Below are positions 29,235-39,870 of a stretch of 64,000 nucleotides of DNA, in pieces. The position numbers were made by a program, and so were the translations under genes. The number at the start of each line of letters is the position of its first letter. Position 1 is the stretch's first letter. The DNA comes from Actinomycetota bacterium (GTDB lineage Bacteria; Actinomycetota; Acidimicrobiia; Acidimicrobiales; MedAcidi-G1). The stretch covers positions 1-64,000 of the forward strand of contig JABHCN010000014.1 in the NCBI GenBank assembly GCA_018673475.1. The letters run 5' to 3'. The notes under the pieces were generated by a model, which worked only from the letters and a program-made list of their open reading frames with translations, was not told the DNA's origin and did no database searches.

Positions 29235-29954
29235 GTGACGCTGCGCATCAACTGCTGGTCGGGACCGAGGAACATCTCTACGGCCCTCATGTACTCCTTC
29301 AGGCAACGAACCGACACGGTCGTGTTCGACGAGCCCATCTACGCCCACTACCTGAGGGTCAGCGGCAGGGAGCATCCGGGCCGGGTGGAAACACTCGCCA
29401 ACCAGGATCCCGACGGCAACGCGGTCGTCCGTGACCTGATCCTGGGCCCCCACCCCAGGCCGATCGCCTTCTTCAAGATGATGAGCCACCACCTGATCGA
29501 CCTGGAAACGGCATTTCTCCGTGAGTGTCGCAACGTTCTCCTGATCCGAGATCCACGCCATGTGCTCCGCTCGCTGAGCGTGAACATCCCCGACGTCAAC
29601 CTCGGCGATACAGGCCTCGAGTCCCAGGTCGAGTTGCTTGATTCGATTCTCGGCGAGGGCGACGACCCGATAGTCGTCGACTCTGCAGCACTGCTTGCCG
29701 ATCCTGCGGCAATGCTCCGGAAGATGTGCTCGATGCTCGATGTCGACTTCGAGGACGCCATGTTGTCGTGGCCGTCAGGACCCAAACCCGAGGACGGGAC
29801 ATGGGCGGTCCACTGGTACGCCAATGCACACGCCTCCACCGGCTTTCTGGCCGGAATCCCGAGCGACGACCCCATTCCCACAGGTCTGGAACCGGTACTC
29901 GAAGCAGCACGCCCGCTCTACGACAGGCTCCTGGAGCACTCCCTTTCCGTCTGA
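29235..29954 (+). CDS. Sulfotransferase-like P-loop protein
   Basis: 239-residue protein beginning with CWSGPRNISTALMYSF, a P-loop-like phosphosulfate-binding motif of the sulfotransferase superfamily. VLLIRDPRHVLRSLS follows, the usual 3'-phosphate-binding RDPR..LxS element. These support binding of PAPS or a related nucleotide. The acceptor is unknown. The GTG start lies 13 bp after the class-IV aminotransferase stop, so they are almost certainly co-transcribed. True sulfotransferase activity is uncertain, because this subfamily is distant from characterised enzymes. Confidence 0.78.
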   Translation: MTLRINCWSGPRNISTALMYSFRQRTDTVVFDEPIYAHYLRVSGREHPGRVETLANQDPDGNAVVRDLILGPHPRPIAFFKMMSHHLIDLETAFLRECRNVLLIRDPRHVLRSLSVNIPDVNLGDTGLESQVELLDSILGEGDDPIVVDSAALLADPAAMLRKMCSMLDVDFEDAMLSWPSGPKPEDGTWAVHWYANAHASTGFLAGIPSDDPIPTGLEPVLEAARPLYDRLLEHSLSV

Positions 29955-30000
29955 TCCGCTGAGGTCACGCTGACAGGAAACTGTGCGCGAGACTCGTTCC

Positions 30001-30564
30001 ATGGCTTGGATTGAGACGGTTCCAGACGACGACTGGGAACCCGGCGGAGGGCAGCTCGCCGAGTTGTACGGCAGGGTCGTCGACCCCGGTCACGGGCGTG
30101 TCGACCACATCATGGCCGTTCACTCGCTCAACCCACGGGGCCTTGCCGCCCACCAGAGCCTCTACGAATCGGCAATGGCTGGAACAGCCACCCTTCGCAA
30201 GGTCGAGAGGGAGATGATCGCCCTGGTTGTGAGCCTCGAAAACGAGTGCCACTACTGAGTAACCCACCACCGGCGCGGTCTGCGCCGACTGCTCCACGAT
30301 GACGATCTGGCTGCCGCCATCGAGTCCGACTGGTCAACGGCCGACATCTCCCCAGAGAGACAGGCGATGCTTGAGATGGCCACGAAGCTCACACGAGAAC
30401 CGGGCAAGGTCGTCGAATCCGACGTGGGCCGACTTCGCAGGGCCGGCTTCAGCGACCGGGACATCCTCGACATCGTCGAGGTCACCGCCTACTACGCCTA
30501 CGTCAACCGCATCGCGGACGGGCTCGGGGTGGGAGTCGAGGTCTGGATCCCGAAAGAAGCCTGA
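30001..30564 (+). CDS. AhpD-like carboxymuconolactone-decarboxylase-family selenoprotein (in-frame TGA = Sec86)
   Basis: 187 residues when the TGA at 30256-30258 is read as selenocysteine. Before it the frame gives MAWIETVPDDDWEPGG through EMIALVVSLENECHY. After it, in the same frame, come VTHHRRGLRRLL and a C-terminus (ILDIVEVTAYYAYVNRIADGLGVGVEV) typical of peroxidase-related AhpD-like proteins. The family active site is CxxCxxxH; here it reads CHYU-VTHH, so the TGA replaces exactly the second, reactive Cys. A SECIS-like hairpin follows. Activity is probably thiol/selenol-dependent peroxide or disulfide reduction. AGGAAA lies upstream at 29975; a GTG at 29983 is an alternative start six codons earlier. 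Read without recoding, the gene would be a broken 85-residue fragment plus a remnant. Confidence 0.88.
30257..30294 (+). promoter_or_regulatory. Bacterial SECIS element of the selenoprotein gene
   Basis: CGGCGC (30271-30276) and GCGCCG (30282-30287) form a perfect 6-bp stem with the loop GGTCT (30277-30281). The loop begins 18 nt after the TGA. From memory the E. coli fdhF SECIS has the same GGUCU loop at the same 18-nt distance. A short outer stem GAGT/GCTC (30257-30260 with 30291-30294) is possible. It lies wholly within the coding region, as bacterial SECIS elements must, and would be bound by SelB. Confidence 0.82.
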
Positions 30565-30573
30565 GCACGCCCC

Positions 30574-31440
30574 CTAGAGGACAGTCCCCAGATTCTGGTG
30601 CTCAGCGTTCGAGAGCGCCCTGACTGCGGCCGCGATGTCCTGTGACGCTATGCCCACCGACTTGAAGAGGGTGAACGGCTCGCTCGACGGTGCTGCCCTA
30701 CCGGCTATCAGGTCTGCCATGTCGGCGTCTGGTTGACGGCCCACCCTCAAAAGGTCTCCCGCCTCGACCGCAGCGGCCTCCCTGTCATCGACGACGACGA
30801 AGGCCGCCTCGACCACCTCGCCCGGGATCTCGACCATTTCCGGGGTGAAGGCTCCGACAGCGTTCACGTGCGTACCGGGCTGCAGGGAGGAGACCTCAAA
30901 CAGCGGAGACCTTGACGGTGTGGCGGTGCTCACCACATCCGCCCGCGCCACCGCCTCGTCTGCATCAAGCACGACCTGGCCTCCGACCTGGTCGGCGAGG
31001 GCCCGGGCGGACGCCTCAGTACGACTCCAGACGAGCACCTCCCCGATGGGTCGCACCGCCCTGACCGCAGCCACCTGGTCGGCAGCCATGGCTCCCGCCC
31101 CGAGCATCGCCAGAACACATGCATCCGGCGGGGCCATCTGGTCCGTTGCCAGACCGGGTGCCGCAGCCGTGCGGATTGCCGACAACGTGGGGCCGTCGAC
31201 CAGGCCCAGAGGGTGGCCCGACTCGTCGAATACGGCAACGATTCCGGCAGGGTCCCCGGGAATCGACGAGACCACCTTGACCCCCGTGTAGGAGTCGAGG
31301 CGGCCGGGCATGAACAGGGAAACCCCGAGGAGCATCCGGTTCGGCGCCTCACGGTCACCTCCGAAGGCATGGACCATCGACTCGATGGCATCTGGCATCG
31401 GCAGTGCGGCACGCACCTCCTCCGGGTTCAGGTAGCGCAT
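30574..31440 (-). CDS. Ornithine cyclodeaminase/mu-crystallin family reductase (probable pyrroline-2-carboxylate reductase)
   Basis: 288-residue NAD(P)-binding protein. The N-terminal substrate segment shows GVKVVSSIPGDPA (family Lys in GxKxx), then LSAIRTAAAPGLATDQMAP, and the Rossmann motif MLGAGAMAADQV near 115. It ends with FKSVGIASQDIAAA, the conserved FKSVG...D element. The gene starts 2 bp after the aconitase-X small-subunit stop, in one operon with both aconitase-X subunits. In the known cis-3-hydroxy-L-proline pathway, a reductase of this superfamily converts the dehydratase product delta1-pyrroline-2-carboxylate to L-proline. Ornithine cyclodeaminase itself is a less likely alternative given the context. 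Confidence 0.85.
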   Translation of the reverse strand: MRYLNPEEVRAALPMPDAIESMVHAFGGDREAPNRMLLGVSLFMPGRLDSYTGVKVVSSIPGDPAGIVAVFDESGHPLGLVDGPTLSAIRTAAAPGLATDQMAPPDACVLAMLGAGAMAADQVAAVRAVRPIGEVLVWSRTEASARALADQVGGQVVLDADEAVARADVVSTATPSRSPLFEVSSLQPGTHVNAVGAFTPEMVEIPGEVVEAAFVVVDDREAAAVEAGDLLRVGRQPDADMADLIAGRAAPSSEPFTLFKSVGIASQDIAAAVRALSNAEHQNLGTVL

Positions 31441-31442
31441 TG

Positions 31443-31895
31443 TCAGCCTCCGGTCGTGTTGTCCGGACCGTCGTCGACGGAGTCGGATTGTCGGTTCAGC
31501 GACCCATCCTCCCCCACGGCAACCGTCTCGCCCGTCATCAGAGACGAGTAGGTGGCACTATCGAGCACAACGACAGGGAGGGAGCGCCCGTACAACTCGT
31601 CAGCCACAATCGCCCCGAGCGAGAGAATCTCGTCTGCCCGGCGGACAAGAAGCGCCACGGGGGCCGAGCCGTTTCGGATTGCCTCGAGCAGGAGCGAGCT
31701 GGAGGAGCTGGACCCACGCCCCGAGGGCATGACCAGGACCCTCCCGGCGACCGTGCAGCCACGCTGTGGATGGTGCCGGTCGACTATCTCCCCGGTTCGG
31801 GGATCGACACCGCCCCAGAAGCTGAGCGGCTCATCAAGGCAGAGCACCTCACCGGTTGCCGAGCCGGCCACCACGACAACCGGGTGTTCAGACAC
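31443..31895 (-). CDS. Aconitase X swivel-domain (small) subunit, DUF126
   Basis: 150-residue small subunit of the aconitase-X type dehydratase. Features are EVLCLDEPLSFWGGVDPRTGEI, HHPQRGCTVAGRVLVMPSGRGSSSSSSLL (the DUF126 landmark, quoted in part), and a C-terminal ADELYGRSLPVVVLD. The start is a GTG at 31895 that overlaps the large-subunit stop by 8 bp. The frame continues upstream inside the large-subunit gene with unrelated sequence. It forms the swivelling half of the active site with the large subunit. Confidence 0.88.
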   Translation of the reverse strand: MSEHPVVVVAGSATGEVLCLDEPLSFWGGVDPRTGEIVDRHHPQRGCTVAGRVLVMPSGRGSSSSSSLLLEAIRNGSAPVALLVRRADEILSLGAIVADELYGRSLPVVVLDSATYSSLMTGETVAVGEDGSLNRQSDSVDDGPDNTTGG

Positions 31896-33198
31896 CTGAC
31901 CACACCGTCTCATCGAGAAGCACCTTGCCGGCCACAGCCGACTCGACACACTCGGAGGTTCCGGCGAACACGACGTCGACCCCGAGGTTGCCGGGTGCGT
32001 ACCAGGCCCACTTGGCCGAGTCTGTCATAGCCGTCCCGGTCGTGTCAGCGAGCACTGCCGACACGTAGGTGCAGGTGTCGACCACAAGGGTCACACCGGC
32101 AGACCGCAGCAGGTCGGCCCACCCCCGCAGCTCCAGTTCGGCGAGCACCGAGCGTCCCGTCGACACATAGAAGTCCACGTCGGTGTGAACCCGTCTGCCC
32201 GTCAGGAGGGTCACCAGGTTCTGGAACTCGTCGACCGAGTAGTGGGGGGTGCCGAGACAGACGCTTGACAGCGCTGATCCCGAGGCGGTGCAGAGTCGGT
32301 CACGAGCAGCCCGCAGGTCGCTGGCGGTCACCTCCACGACCTCGTGTGGCTCCCGCCCGCCCAGAGCCGCCTCGAGGGTTGGCGCCTCCGGTGTGTTGCC
32401 GACGGAATGGAACATACCGACGCTGCCGGCTGTTGCCGCGCCGGCACCGAGGGCCCGCAACCTCACCTCGCTGAGGGCCGTGGGCAGGCCGTCGATCACG
32501 GGAACCCGGCTACCCGAGGCTGCTCCGACGACCGTCCCGAGTAGCGGATAGACCTGATCAATGTTGAGCAGGTCTGGGGAAATATCTTGGAGTCGAATAA
32601 GGATCGTGGCACGACGGTTCTCATCGAGGTGCAGGCCGGCCGCGGGTACCCGGCCTGTGATAGCTGCGGAAATGTCGATCAGGTCCCCGTAGCGGGCCGT
32701 GCGGGCACCCAGCACCGAGTTGGCAAAGACGATGGCATTCGACTCGGCCCAGGCCACCTGTTCACCCAATGACGGACGGTTCTCAAGGTGGTACGGCGCG
32801 CACGTCCAGGTCGGTTGACAACCCATCTTCTCGTACATCTCCGCCAGCCGTCGAGCGGCTTCGCCCTCGGCCTCATCCCCCCGGTGCAGTTCGGGATGCA
32901 ACAGGTCCAACGAGGAGACGTTGAGCGTGGTCGGTACGGCGACCGAGGCACCACCCTCGACGAGGCGTCCGGCAAAGTCCAGCCCCGACTGCCCGTGGTA
33001 GAGACACGAGTCGACGTGGGCGCCCGTGATGTCGAGCAGTCGGTCGACCCCCATCGACTCGGCCAGGCGCACGACGATCCGCATGGCCAAGCGGGCGGCC
33101 GGGCCCGCATCTCCTGCCAACCGTTGCCTGTCCTCGACGCTCAGGTCCACCCGTTGAGCGTAGGTTGCCGACAACGTGGGTCCTGAACCAGCAGCCAT
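31888..33198 (-). CDS. Aconitase X catalytic (large) subunit, DUF521; probable cis-3-hydroxy-L-proline dehydratase
   Basis: 436-residue catalytic subunit. Landmarks of the DUF521 family are present: DITGAHVDSCLYHGQSGLDFA, PTTLNVSSLDLLHP, EMGC-like YEKMGCQPTWTCAPY (family Cys residues), WAESNAIVFANSVLGART, and the late VDTCTYVSAVL with WAWYAPGNL. Bacterial members dehydrate cis-3-hydroxy-L-proline to delta1-pyrroline-2-carboxylate; archaeal members dehydrate phosphomevalonate. The linked ornithine-cyclodeaminase-family reductase points to the hydroxyproline role. It is first in a three-gene minus-strand operon. The ATG at 33198 has no clear ribosome-binding site, and the first ~17 residues are poorly conserved. 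Confidence 0.86.
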   Translation of the reverse strand: MAAGSGPTLSATYAQRVDLSVEDRQRLAGDAGPAARLAMRIVVRLAESMGVDRLLDITGAHVDSCLYHGQSGLDFAGRLVEGGASVAVPTTLNVSSLDLLHPELHRGDEAEGEAARRLAEMYEKMGCQPTWTCAPYHLENRPSLGEQVAWAESNAIVFANSVLGARTARYGDLIDISAAITGRVPAAGLHLDENRRATILIRLQDISPDLLNIDQVYPLLGTVVGAASGSRVPVIDGLPTALSEVRLRALGAGAATAGSVGMFHSVGNTPEAPTLEAALGGREPHEVVEVTASDLRAARDRLCTASGSALSSVCLGTPHYSVDEFQNLVTLLTGRRVHTDVDFYVSTGRSVLAELELRGWADLLRSAGVTLVVDTCTYVSAVLADTTGTAMTDSAKWAWYAPGNLGVDVVFAGTSECVESAVAGKVLLDETVWSGV

Positions 33199-33621: not shown

Positions 33622-36299
33622 CGCCTCAGACTCCCACGCCCTGGAGTAGCCGTTTCCAGAACGGCGTGGGCAGCTGCAAGGCGTGCCGTAGGCAGTCGGG
33701 CGGGTGAGCACGACAGGTAGTCGACACCAGCCGCCAGCAGGCGTGGAATCGAGCGGGGGTCGCCGGCGTGCTCACCGCAGACCCCCACCTTGAGGCCCGG
33801 CTTGGCGCCCCGCCCGCGTTGCACAGCCAGGTCGACCAACTCCCCGACTGCCGCGTCGTCGAGGTGTTCGAATGGATTGTGGTCGAGCAGCCCCCGGTCC
33901 AGGTATAGGTCCATGAATCGACCCTCGACGTCGTCGCGGGAGAACCCGAAGGTCAACTGGGTCAGGTCGTTGCTGCCAACTGAGAAAAAGTCGGCGTGCC
34001 CGGCGAGGTCTCCGGCGAGCAGGGCTGCTCTGGGTGTCTCGATCATGGTGCCCACCGGGGGTGCCTCTCCCATTCCGACATCTGCTGCCGCCTCCCTGAC
34101 CCACTCGATGGCCAGGGCCAACTCGGGACCGGAGACCGTAAGCGGGATCATGACCTCGACAAGAGGGTCTCCGCCTGCCGCACATCGGGCCATGACCGCT
34201 GAGAACAGGGCCTTCGCCTGCATCCGATAGAGGCCGGGGCGAAGGTGGGCCAGGCGTACCCCCCGGGTTCCCATCATCGGGTTGACCTCGGTCCAGTAAC
34301 GGGCTGACTTGAGCAGCGCCTGTCCTTCCGGGTCGAGGTCGCCCCTGGCCTCGTCGACAACCAGGTCTCCGATGTCGGGCAGGAACTCATGCAGGGGTGG
34401 GTCCAGGAGCCGCACCGTCACCGGCAGACCGTCCATCACATCGAGGATGCCCTCGAAGTCCGCCTGCTGGGCGGTCCCAAGCTGCTCCAGAGCCTCTGTT
34501 TCGGCCTCGGCGGTCTCGGCCAGGATCATCGCCCTGACAAGGGGTAGCCGATCGGGGCTCAGGAACATGTGCTCGGTCCGACACAGGCCGATCCCGACCG
34601 CGCCAGCCTCGCGGGCAGTTGCTGCGTCTTCGGCTGTGTCCGCGTTTGCCCTGACCGCAAGGTTTCCAGAGGCGATCTCGTCGGCCCAGTCCAGGATCAG
34701 GTCGAGTTCGGGCGGCACCACCGACTCGACGACACCCCTGCCGCCCAGGGTCACAGAGCCGGTGGTTCCATCGATCGAGATGGTGTCGCCCTCGGTGACG
34801 ACGACGTCTCCGACCCGGAAGTGGTCATCGGCGACCTCTACCTGCTCGGCCCCACAGACACAGGGAGTTCCCCAACCGCGGGCCACGACGGCAGCGTGGC
34901 TGACCAGACCACCATGGGAGGTCAGGATTCCCTCCACGACGGCCATGGCGGCCACGTCGTCGGGCGAGGTCTCTCGTCTCACGAGGATCACCTGCTCGCC
35001 ACGTTCAACCGCGTCGATTGCGCCTTCGGTGGTCATATAGGCGCGCCCGACGGCCGCTCCCGGAGATGCCCCCAGCCCGTGTGTGACCTCGGGGGTGTCT
35101 GTCTCGGCGAAACCCACGTGCAACACCTGGGACAGGTGGTCGGGGGTGATGCGGGCTACCGCCTCGGCCCTTGTGAGGGAGACACCCGGGTCCTCAACCA
35201 GTTGGCTGGCGATCCGGATGGCGGCGGCTCCGGTGCGCTTGCCGACACGGCACTGGAGGATGTGCAGATGACCCTGTTCGACGGTGAACTCGACATCGCA
35301 CATGTCCCGGTAGTGGTCCTCCAGCAACTCAAGTGCACGATCCAGCTCGGCTCCCTGTTCGGGCATGAGCCTGGAGAAGTCGTCGATCGGGAGTGTGGCG
35401 TGGGTGCCCGACACGACGTCCTCTCCCTGAGCACCGGGCAGGTAGTCGCCGGTGGAGTGGTTCTCGCCGGTTGCCGGGTCACGCGTGAACACGACGCCGC
35501 TGCCTGAGGAGTCGTCGCGGTTGCCGAACACCATGGCCTGGATGGTGCAGGCCGTTCCGATGTCTCCGTCGATCCCCTCGCGCCTCCTGTACTCGACTGC
35601 CCGCTCACCCATCCAGGAGTCGAACACGGCAGCGACGGATGTGCGCAGTTGTTCGAACGGATCGTCGGGAAGCGTTGCCCCGGGCTGGTCCGCCACGATC
35701 TGGCGCAGGTCGGCGATCAGCTCTGAGAGCATTCCGGGCTCGAGGTCGAACTCGTGGTCGACACCTGCCTCCCGGACAGCCGATGCCACCACCTCGGGGA
35801 GGTCGGCTGCGACCCTCAGGACGACCTCGGCGTAGGACTGCACGAACCGACGGTGCGAGTCGAGGGCGAAACGTTCATCGGTGGCTCCCGCCAGGCCCGC
35901 CGTCGTCTCGCTGTTGAGGCCCAGGTTCAAGACGGTGTCCATCATTCCCGGCATCGAGATGGCCGCCCCCGACCTGACACTCAACAAGAGGGGGTTGTCG
36001 GGGTCACCCAGACGGCGTCCGGTGCGTTCCTCAAGACCTGCCACTGCCGCACGAAGACCCTCATCAAGGTCCGGTGGCCAACCTGAGGAGAGGTAGGAAC
36101 GGCACACCTCGGTGGTGATGGTGAAGGCAGGCGGCACCGGGAGCGACAGCGTTGTGGCCATCAGGGCAAGCGAAGCACCCTTGCCCCCCATGAGAGCCCT
36201 CTTCTGGTCGGGCGCAAGGCTGCCGGCCTCGTCGATGAACACGATCGACGGCGCCACAATGCCGCCCGGGTTGTCGTTGTCAGGCTGACCTTGGCCCAT
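33618..36299 (-). CDS. ppdK: Pyruvate, phosphate dikinase
   Basis: Interconverts pyruvate + ATP + Pi and PEP + AMP + PPi; 893 residues, close to the usual ~880. The N-terminal nucleotide-binding domain has LMGGKGASLALM and LLSVRSGAAISMPGMMDTVLNLG. The central swivelling domain has the phosphorylated His in GGLVSHAAVVARGWGTPCVCG. The C-terminal PEP domain has MGTRGVRL, MIETPRAAL, SVGSNDLTQLTFGFSRDDVEG and the catalytic Cys in VGVCGEHAGDP. I chose the ATG at 36299, because the upstream open frame runs into the tRNA-Leu gene. It lies 50 bp after the tRNA. It links pyruvate and PEP pools, working with the PEP carboxylase at 45-48 kb. Confidence 0.94.
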   Translation of the reverse strand: MGQGQPDNDNPGGIVAPSIVFIDEAGSLAPDQKRALMGGKGASLALMATTLSLPVPPAFTITTEVCRSYLSSGWPPDLDEGLRAAVAGLEERTGRRLGDPDNPLLLSVRSGAAISMPGMMDTVLNLGLNSETTAGLAGATDERFALDSHRRFVQSYAEVVLRVAADLPEVVASAVREAGVDHEFDLEPGMLSELIADLRQIVADQPGATLPDDPFEQLRTSVAAVFDSWMGERAVEYRRREGIDGDIGTACTIQAMVFGNRDDSSGSGVVFTRDPATGENHSTGDYLPGAQGEDVVSGTHATLPIDDFSRLMPEQGAELDRALELLEDHYRDMCDVEFTVEQGHLHILQCRVGKRTGAAAIRIASQLVEDPGVSLTRAEAVARITPDHLSQVLHVGFAETDTPEVTHGLGASPGAAVGRAYMTTEGAIDAVERGEQVILVRRETSPDDVAAMAVVEGILTSHGGLVSHAAVVARGWGTPCVCGAEQVEVADDHFRVGDVVVTEGDTISIDGTTGSVTLGGRGVVESVVPPELDLILDWADEIASGNLAVRANADTAEDAATAREAGAVGIGLCRTEHMFLSPDRLPLVRAMILAETAEAETEALEQLGTAQQADFEGILDVMDGLPVTVRLLDPPLHEFLPDIGDLVVDEARGDLDPEGQALLKSARYWTEVNPMMGTRGVRLAHLRPGLYRMQAKALFSAVMARCAAGGDPLVEVMIPLTVSGPELALAIEWVREAAADVGMGEAPPVGTMIETPRAALLAGDLAGHADFFSVGSNDLTQLTFGFSRDDVEGRFMDLYLDRGLLDHNPFEHLDDAAVGELVDLAVQRGRGAKPGLKVGVCGEHAGDPRSIPRLLAAGVDYLSCSPARLPTARLAAAHAVLETATPGRGSLRR

Positions 36300-39087: not shown

Positions 39088-39870
39088 ATGCCACCCATGA
39101 GCATTCTCGAGACCGAGCAGCGTGGCCGGGTGGTCATCCTCACCTTCAACGACCCTGATCGTCGGAACGTCGTTTCCGAGGAGATGAACACCGCTCTGCT
39201 GGCGGCGTTCGACGATATGGAGGCCGACGAGGATGTCGGCGCTGTTGTCCTCACCGGTTCCGGAAGAGCGTTCTGCGCCGGTGCGGTGCTCGACAACCTG
39301 TTGTCTGCCGGCGAGGCCGACCCCGATGGTGGCGGCGACCTGCCCGATATCTACAGCGGCTTCCTCAGGGTCGCCCACTCGACGCTGCCGACGGTCGCTG
39401 CGGTCAACGGGGCCGCCGTGGGTGCCGGGATGAACATGGTCCTGGCCTGCGATCTGGTCGTCGCAGCGCAGTCGGCACGCTTTGACACCAGGTTCCTGTC
39501 CATTGGCCTGCATCCGGGCGGAGGACACACCTGGCGCCTGCGCAACATCACCGACCTGCAGACCGCCAAGGCGATGGTGCTGTTCAAACAGGTGCTCGGT
39601 GGCGAGGAGGCCGCCGCCAGAGGCGTGGCATGGGAGTGCTTGGACGACACCGACCTGGTCGATGCCGCTGTCGGATACGCCGAACTGGCGGCCTCACACC
39701 CGAAGGAACTGGTGGCGAGGACCAAGGCGACCCTGCACTCGACCGCTGCGGTAACTGCTTCTGAGGAGTCCGTCAAATTGGAGATCGGCCCTCAGGTCTG
39801 GTCAATGCACCAGCCGGCGTTCGTGGAGATGGTCGAGGGCCTGAAGTCGCGTATCTCCAGCAAGTCCTGA
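39088..39870 (+). CDS. Enoyl-CoA hydratase/isomerase (crotonase) family protein lacking the usual catalytic glutamates
   Basis: 260 residues with the crotonase fold: NDPDRRNVVSEEMN, the oxyanion-hole segment GRAFCAGAVLDNLL, and NGAAVGAGMNMVLACDL. Aligned by eye to rat enoyl-CoA hydratase, the Glu144 position falls on Phe (ARFDTRFLSIGLHPGGG) and Glu164 on Ala (TAKAMVL), so classical hydration is unlikely. Other crotonase reactions (isomerase, hydrolase, or a binding role) are possible. The ATG at 39088 has GGAGG 11 bases upstream. A second ATG at 39097 is an alternative start. It is divergent from the MFS gene and convergent with the GNAT gene. Confidence 0.85.
   Translation: MPPMSILETEQRGRVVILTFNDPDRRNVVSEEMNTALLAAFDDMEADEDVGAVVLTGSGRAFCAGAVLDNLLSAGEADPDGGGDLPDIYSGFLRVAHSTLPTVAAVNGAAVGAGMNMVLACDLVVAAQSARFDTRFLSIGLHPGGGHTWRLRNITDLQTAKAMVLFKQVLGGEEAAARGVAWECLDDTDLVDAAVGYAELAASHPKELVARTKATLHSTAAVTASEESVKLEIGPQVWSMHQPAFVEMVEGLKSRISSKS

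Follow-up and report, generated by a model that had tools for sequence, protein, structure and literature searches.

The gene at positions 30001-30564 (forward strand) of the window, the whole 64,000-nt stretch of actinobacterial DNA analysed here, carries an internal in-frame UGA that is very probably decoded as selenocysteine (Sec), which would make it a bacterial selenoprotein gene. The AhpD-like assignment of this gene (TIGR01926/PF02627) is based on profile matches, orthologues and an AlphaFold2 model, and its predicted product has 187 residues, with Sec at residue 86. On re-reading the frame, it was found that TGA at 30256-30258 is the sole internal stop, TAA and TAG being absent, as an earlier note on this DNA had stated; the terminal codon (30562-30564) is TGA too. 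Translation round the internal TGA gives ...ENECHY-U-VTHHRRGLRR..., and both this translation and the homologue column agree with the note in placing the UGA at the second Cys position of the CxxCxxxH motif. The note had also foreseen that automatic annotation would truncate the gene, and a plain ORF listing does end it at 91 residues, so that standard ORF calling shortens this selenoprotein gene.

The earlier note had proposed to align homologues and see whether Cys or TGA occupies this column. The codon was found to be TGA in all 60 close-orthologue loci, which represent 47 distinct sequences (some genomes are present in two collections) from actinobacterial MAGs, chiefly Acidimicrobiia; in 50 distant homologues the codon is TGC or TGT. 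Within a class-wide sample of 247 genomes, the internal TGA was present in 41 of 41 matches of at least 57% identity, one of which carries an additional TAA within the matched stretch. Judged from substitution patterns, purifying selection acts to a similar degree before and after the TGA, with a mean pN/pS of 0.31 upstream and 0.38 downstream over 300 pairs, and the other two frames downstream of it contain 95 and 71 stops per 2561 codons. A single origin of Sec is not shown by the homologue tree, where three label changes are needed and long branches meet. In one distant homologue (L129, G010:C39:102900-104000) the Sec column holds Ala (CDYA) and the His is retained; its two-residue redox centre may be lost.

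Downstream of the UGA lies a predicted bacterial SECIS hairpin (30271-30287, forward strand) with the 6-bp stem CGGCGC/GCGCCG and the loop GGUCU at 30277-30281. The stem begins 12 nt past the UGA and the loop at +19, leaving 18 nt between the TGA and the loop; the perfect stem and the spacing given in the earlier note are thus confirmed. The likeness to the E. coli fdhF element that the note had drawn also holds, since the fdhF record has GGTCT at +19 to +23. The stem sequences of the two elements differ. The E. coli fdhF hairpin has a bulged U, needed by E. coli SelB, whereas the window stem is without it. Counting both strands, the window contains 1811 TGA triplets; a Watson-Crick hairpin of 6 bp whose GGTC loop falls at +16 to +26 follows this one and none of the others. 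A published model of bacterial SECIS elements specifies a spacing of 16-37 nt, a loop of 3-9 nt with G within the first two positions, a stem of 4-16 bp and an MFE of at most -7.5 kcal/mol (PMC13188914); with a spacing of 18 nt, a 5-nt GGUCU loop, 6 bp and -12.2 kcal/mol, the window hairpin lies inside all of these limits. Scanning the window for TGA-hairpin combinations also returned hits at 35724+, 37982-, 14668- and 7924-, and two more at 39431+ and 57927+ were rejected as spurious, their readthrough frames resembling non-coding or antisense translation.

Taken by itself, the folding energy of the hairpin does not reach significance (z -0.8 to -1.5); the support for the SECIS comes from comparative evidence. 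An Rfam scan of 29900-30700 returned zero families, which says nothing against a SECIS. The codons at +6 to +9 past the TGA, encoding R-G-L-R, are nearly frozen at synonymous sites (CGC in 46/47, GGT in 46/47, CTG in 46/47 and CGC or CGT in 47/47), and conserved Arg, Gly and Leu columns outside the hairpin use four to six synonyms, a pattern read here as synonymous constraint. Double changes occur among orthologues at three of the six stem pairs: one pair changes from G-C to A-U, G-U or C-G, another from G-C to A-U, and the pair adjoining the loop shows a compensatory change from C-G to U-A. The covariation score of the stem is 0.157 against 0.087 for shuffled data, with none of 500 shuffles as high; it is based on few events, since two pairs are invariant and the outermost pair is often broken. 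More distant TGA-bearing relatives retain the loop on other stems. A homologue of 41% identity (L132) has GGUC, again at +19, within the stem GGAGAA/UUCUCC, and a second TGA-bearing AhpD-like clade (L139-L144; about 35-44% identity to the window protein), hosted by ~1-Mb genomes of one genus and by others of the class, has the GGUC loop at +26 on a third, unrelated stem sequence. GGTC at +16 to +26 was absent from all seven non-TGA homologues examined beside these.

The earlier note had predicted that selA, selB, selC and selD must be present, and the full set was found in the same genome (78 contigs, 94.6% complete). selA and selB are adjacent (L003), tRNA-Sec has a TCA anticodon (L011), and selD (L019, G000:C3:22669-23589) has an in-frame TGA of its own (GAGUGCK). 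The absence of selB or selC, which the note had named as evidence against Sec, is therefore not the case, selB and tRNA-Sec both being present. Of 61 genomes, 38 carry the TGA gene and 23 lack it; selA is present in 36 of the former and in 10 of the latter (Fisher p 1.2e-5, counting each genome as independent). The two carriers without selA are assemblies of 85% and 69% completeness. TGA also occupies a known Sec position in at least three other genes of this genome, namely a Prx with TPGU (L134, G000:C12:24055-24435), a Prx-like gene with WUGC (L137, G000:C28:8970-9302) and a SelW-like gene with CVPU (L138, G000:C27:33945-34157). This selenoproteome is fairly rich for a 2-Mb genome. Foreign contigs are possible in the assembly; the selenoprotein gene is nonetheless syntenic in relatives. 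In the proposed mechanism, SelB carrying Sec-tRNA(Sec) would bind the GGUCU-loop hairpin, and the UGA would then be decoded as selenocysteine. The insertion of Sec in vivo at residue 86, which the note had also put forward, is supported by the machinery, by the TGA column in 60/60 loci and by the constraint and covariation of the hairpin, and we infer that it takes place.

The profile TIGR01926 ('peroxidase-related enzyme') scores 139.6 bits against a curated cut-off of 81.8, and the protein also matches Pfam CMD (PF02627); by the TIGR01926 score, it is assigned to the TIGR01926/COG2128 AhpD-like family. Another profile, NF041238 (AhpD_rel_CFYUT), stays below its cut-off (41.2 bits versus 175). 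The AlphaFold2 model, built from 48 sequences with Cys substituted for Sec, has a pLDDT of 94.2 and predicts an all-helical AhpD-like protein. Its fold matches include 3c1l, 2prr and 6k40, the nearest solved relatives being AhpD-like with 3c1l first, and the AhpD-fold debrominase Bmp8 (6ohi) appears in the same search with a TM of 0.78. The active-site motif C83-H84-Y85-U86-V-T-H89-H90 (30247-30270, forward strand), identified from translation and alignment, lies in the model on a two-helix hairpin (helices 67-81 and 84-98). In PA0269 and in AhpD of M. tuberculosis, five residues have been described as the proton relay, Glu, Cys, Tyr/His, Cys and His (PMC3141380). All five have counterparts in the window protein (E71, C83, Y85, U86 and H90), and the Glu, Cys, Tyr and His of the relay do not vary among the 47 distinct Sec sequences. 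The C83-x-x-U86 pair would form the redox centre, with E71, Y85 and H90 as the proton relay; by analogy with the Cys family, U86 would act as the attacking selenolate and C83 as the resolving residue, and a thiol system would serve as electron donor and recycle the enzyme. The protein probably reduces peroxides or organic hydroperoxides, or else serves a peroxiredoxin partner. AhpC/TSA-family genes are present in the genome.

The genes upstream on the same strand encode a class IV aminotransferase (PF01063; 28358-29221), whose true start may lie further upstream than 28358, and a Sulfotransfer_5 protein (PF19798; 29235-29954). Co-transcription of both with the selenoprotein gene had been suggested. 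It is plausible locally, with gaps of 13 nt between aminotransferase and sulfotransferase and 46 nt between sulfotransferase and selenoprotein gene, and an operon of the three is possible, but the arrangement is not general: of 30 named loci, 8 have the sulfotransferase in front of Sec-AhpD and 7 have the aminotransferase upstream, and most Sec-AhpD loci are without both. An TGCGCGAGACTC-like element is located at 29983-29995 of the window, and in many close relatives it stands some 12 nt upstream of the start codon; exact GAGACT was found in 13 of 41 upstream regions and near variants in others. The element is possibly a promoter or regulator site. Convergent to the selenoprotein gene on the reverse strand is a gene of the ornithine cyclodeaminase/Delta1-pyrroline-2-carboxylate reductase family (30574-31440), assigned at family level only because its scores fall below the curated NCBIfam cut-offs. 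It is followed, also on the reverse strand, by an aconitase X swivel domain (31443-31949) and AcnX (31888-33198), together cis-3-hydroxy-L-proline dehydratase-like (31443-33198). These last two are separate ORFs that overlap by up to 62 nt. AcnX and Sec-AhpD lie close to each other in 21 of the 30 named loci; owing to its convergent orientation AcnX is not on the selenoprotein transcript, and a functional tie between the two is a matter of speculation.

Several other readings of the gene were weighed. TGA differs from TGC or TGT by one base and the assembly consists of 78 contigs, so the codon might be a miscalled Cys codon or assembly error, or a nonsense mutation in a pseudogene. This is extremely improbable: the occurrence of this TGA at 60/60 close-orthologue loci, which come from many separate assemblies, excludes the sequencing error that the earlier note had named as a ground for refutation, and its conservation, taken with the purifying selection past it, the stops in the other frames, the lack of any other stop in this frame and the conserved SECIS, excludes error and pseudogene alike. 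Purifying selection downstream would also be expected if the TGA were read through with a residue other than Sec, by stop reassignment or generic readthrough. That explanation is very unlikely too, given that the gene uses TGA as its own terminal stop, that the internal TGA falls precisely at the redox Cys column, that the genome has complete Sec machinery and a constrained hairpin, and that its other TGA genes likewise have the codon at known Sec positions.

A further alternative leaves the decoding as Sec untouched and bears solely on the reaction: the selenoprotein could, for example, dehalogenate a substrate reductively, as Bmp8 does, or engage a specific partner in thiol-disulfide exchange. 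The occurrence of this debrominase among AhpD-fold proteins makes the peroxidase activity less than certain, AhpD-like proteins are described as having no known substrates and the peroxidase activity reported for PA0269 is weak (PMC3141380), and the neighbouring genes encode amino-acid enzymes. Among structures and sequence families alike, however, the nearest ones are peroxidase-related proteins of the AhpD-like type, and five of five relay residues are present, which leaves a different reaction as the less favoured, though still appreciable, prospect beside peroxide reduction.

AhpD-like CxxU selenoproteins are a kind already known from marine metagenomes since 2005. In the Sargasso Sea survey, one of the first reports of the family, 27 AhpD-like COG2128 CXXU selenoproteins with predicted SECIS elements were found (PMC1088965), and 299 'AhpD-like 1' COG2128 CxxU sequences were described from GOS (PMC2398784), which bears out the note's statement on such proteins from ocean metagenomes. 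Reviews list AhpD-like COG2128/TIGR01926 CxxU proteins with an example accession (PMC9312934, PMC13188914). As far as published descriptions allow the comparison, the window gene shares with these its family, the CxxU motif, a downstream SECIS-type hairpin and marine origin; what distinguishes it is that it stands in a genome with Sec machinery and in a partly conserved neighbourhood. The AhpD-related CFYUT (seleno)protein of NF041238 likewise has an AhpD-like domain with Sec in CxxU, but it is ~357 residues long and of a different subfamily, in contrast to the 187 residues of the window protein. The solved structures 3c1l (Mlr4105), 2prr, 2oyo, 2pfx and 6k40 have the same fold and similar length at ~26-35% identity to the window protein, and 3c1l has Cys at the column of the window's Sec.

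A partial literature search found no specific report of selenocysteine in marine Acidimicrobiia or of selenoproteins in Actinomarina, and the GOS AhpD-like sequences may come from such Acidimicrobiia. The gene at 30001-30564 adds no new principle. As far as the genomes indicate, the predicted Sec AhpD-like gene occurs widely among Acidimicrobiia, often close to genes resembling those of hydroxyproline catabolism. A bolder proposal starts from the adjoining AcnX-type dehydratase and pyrroline-2-carboxylate reductase and holds that the Sec AhpD is lineage-wide in Acidimicrobiia, tied to hydroxyproline or amino-acid catabolism with a specific by-product as substrate in place of a general peroxidase role, the +19 and +26 SECIS forms existing side by side in the class and being served by the same kind of SelB; this is unlikely. 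What the analysis does provide is a link between a selenoprotein family defined from metagenomes and a named lineage, the Acidimicrobiia, together with the Sec machinery, the SECIS and a neighbourhood that is conserved in part.
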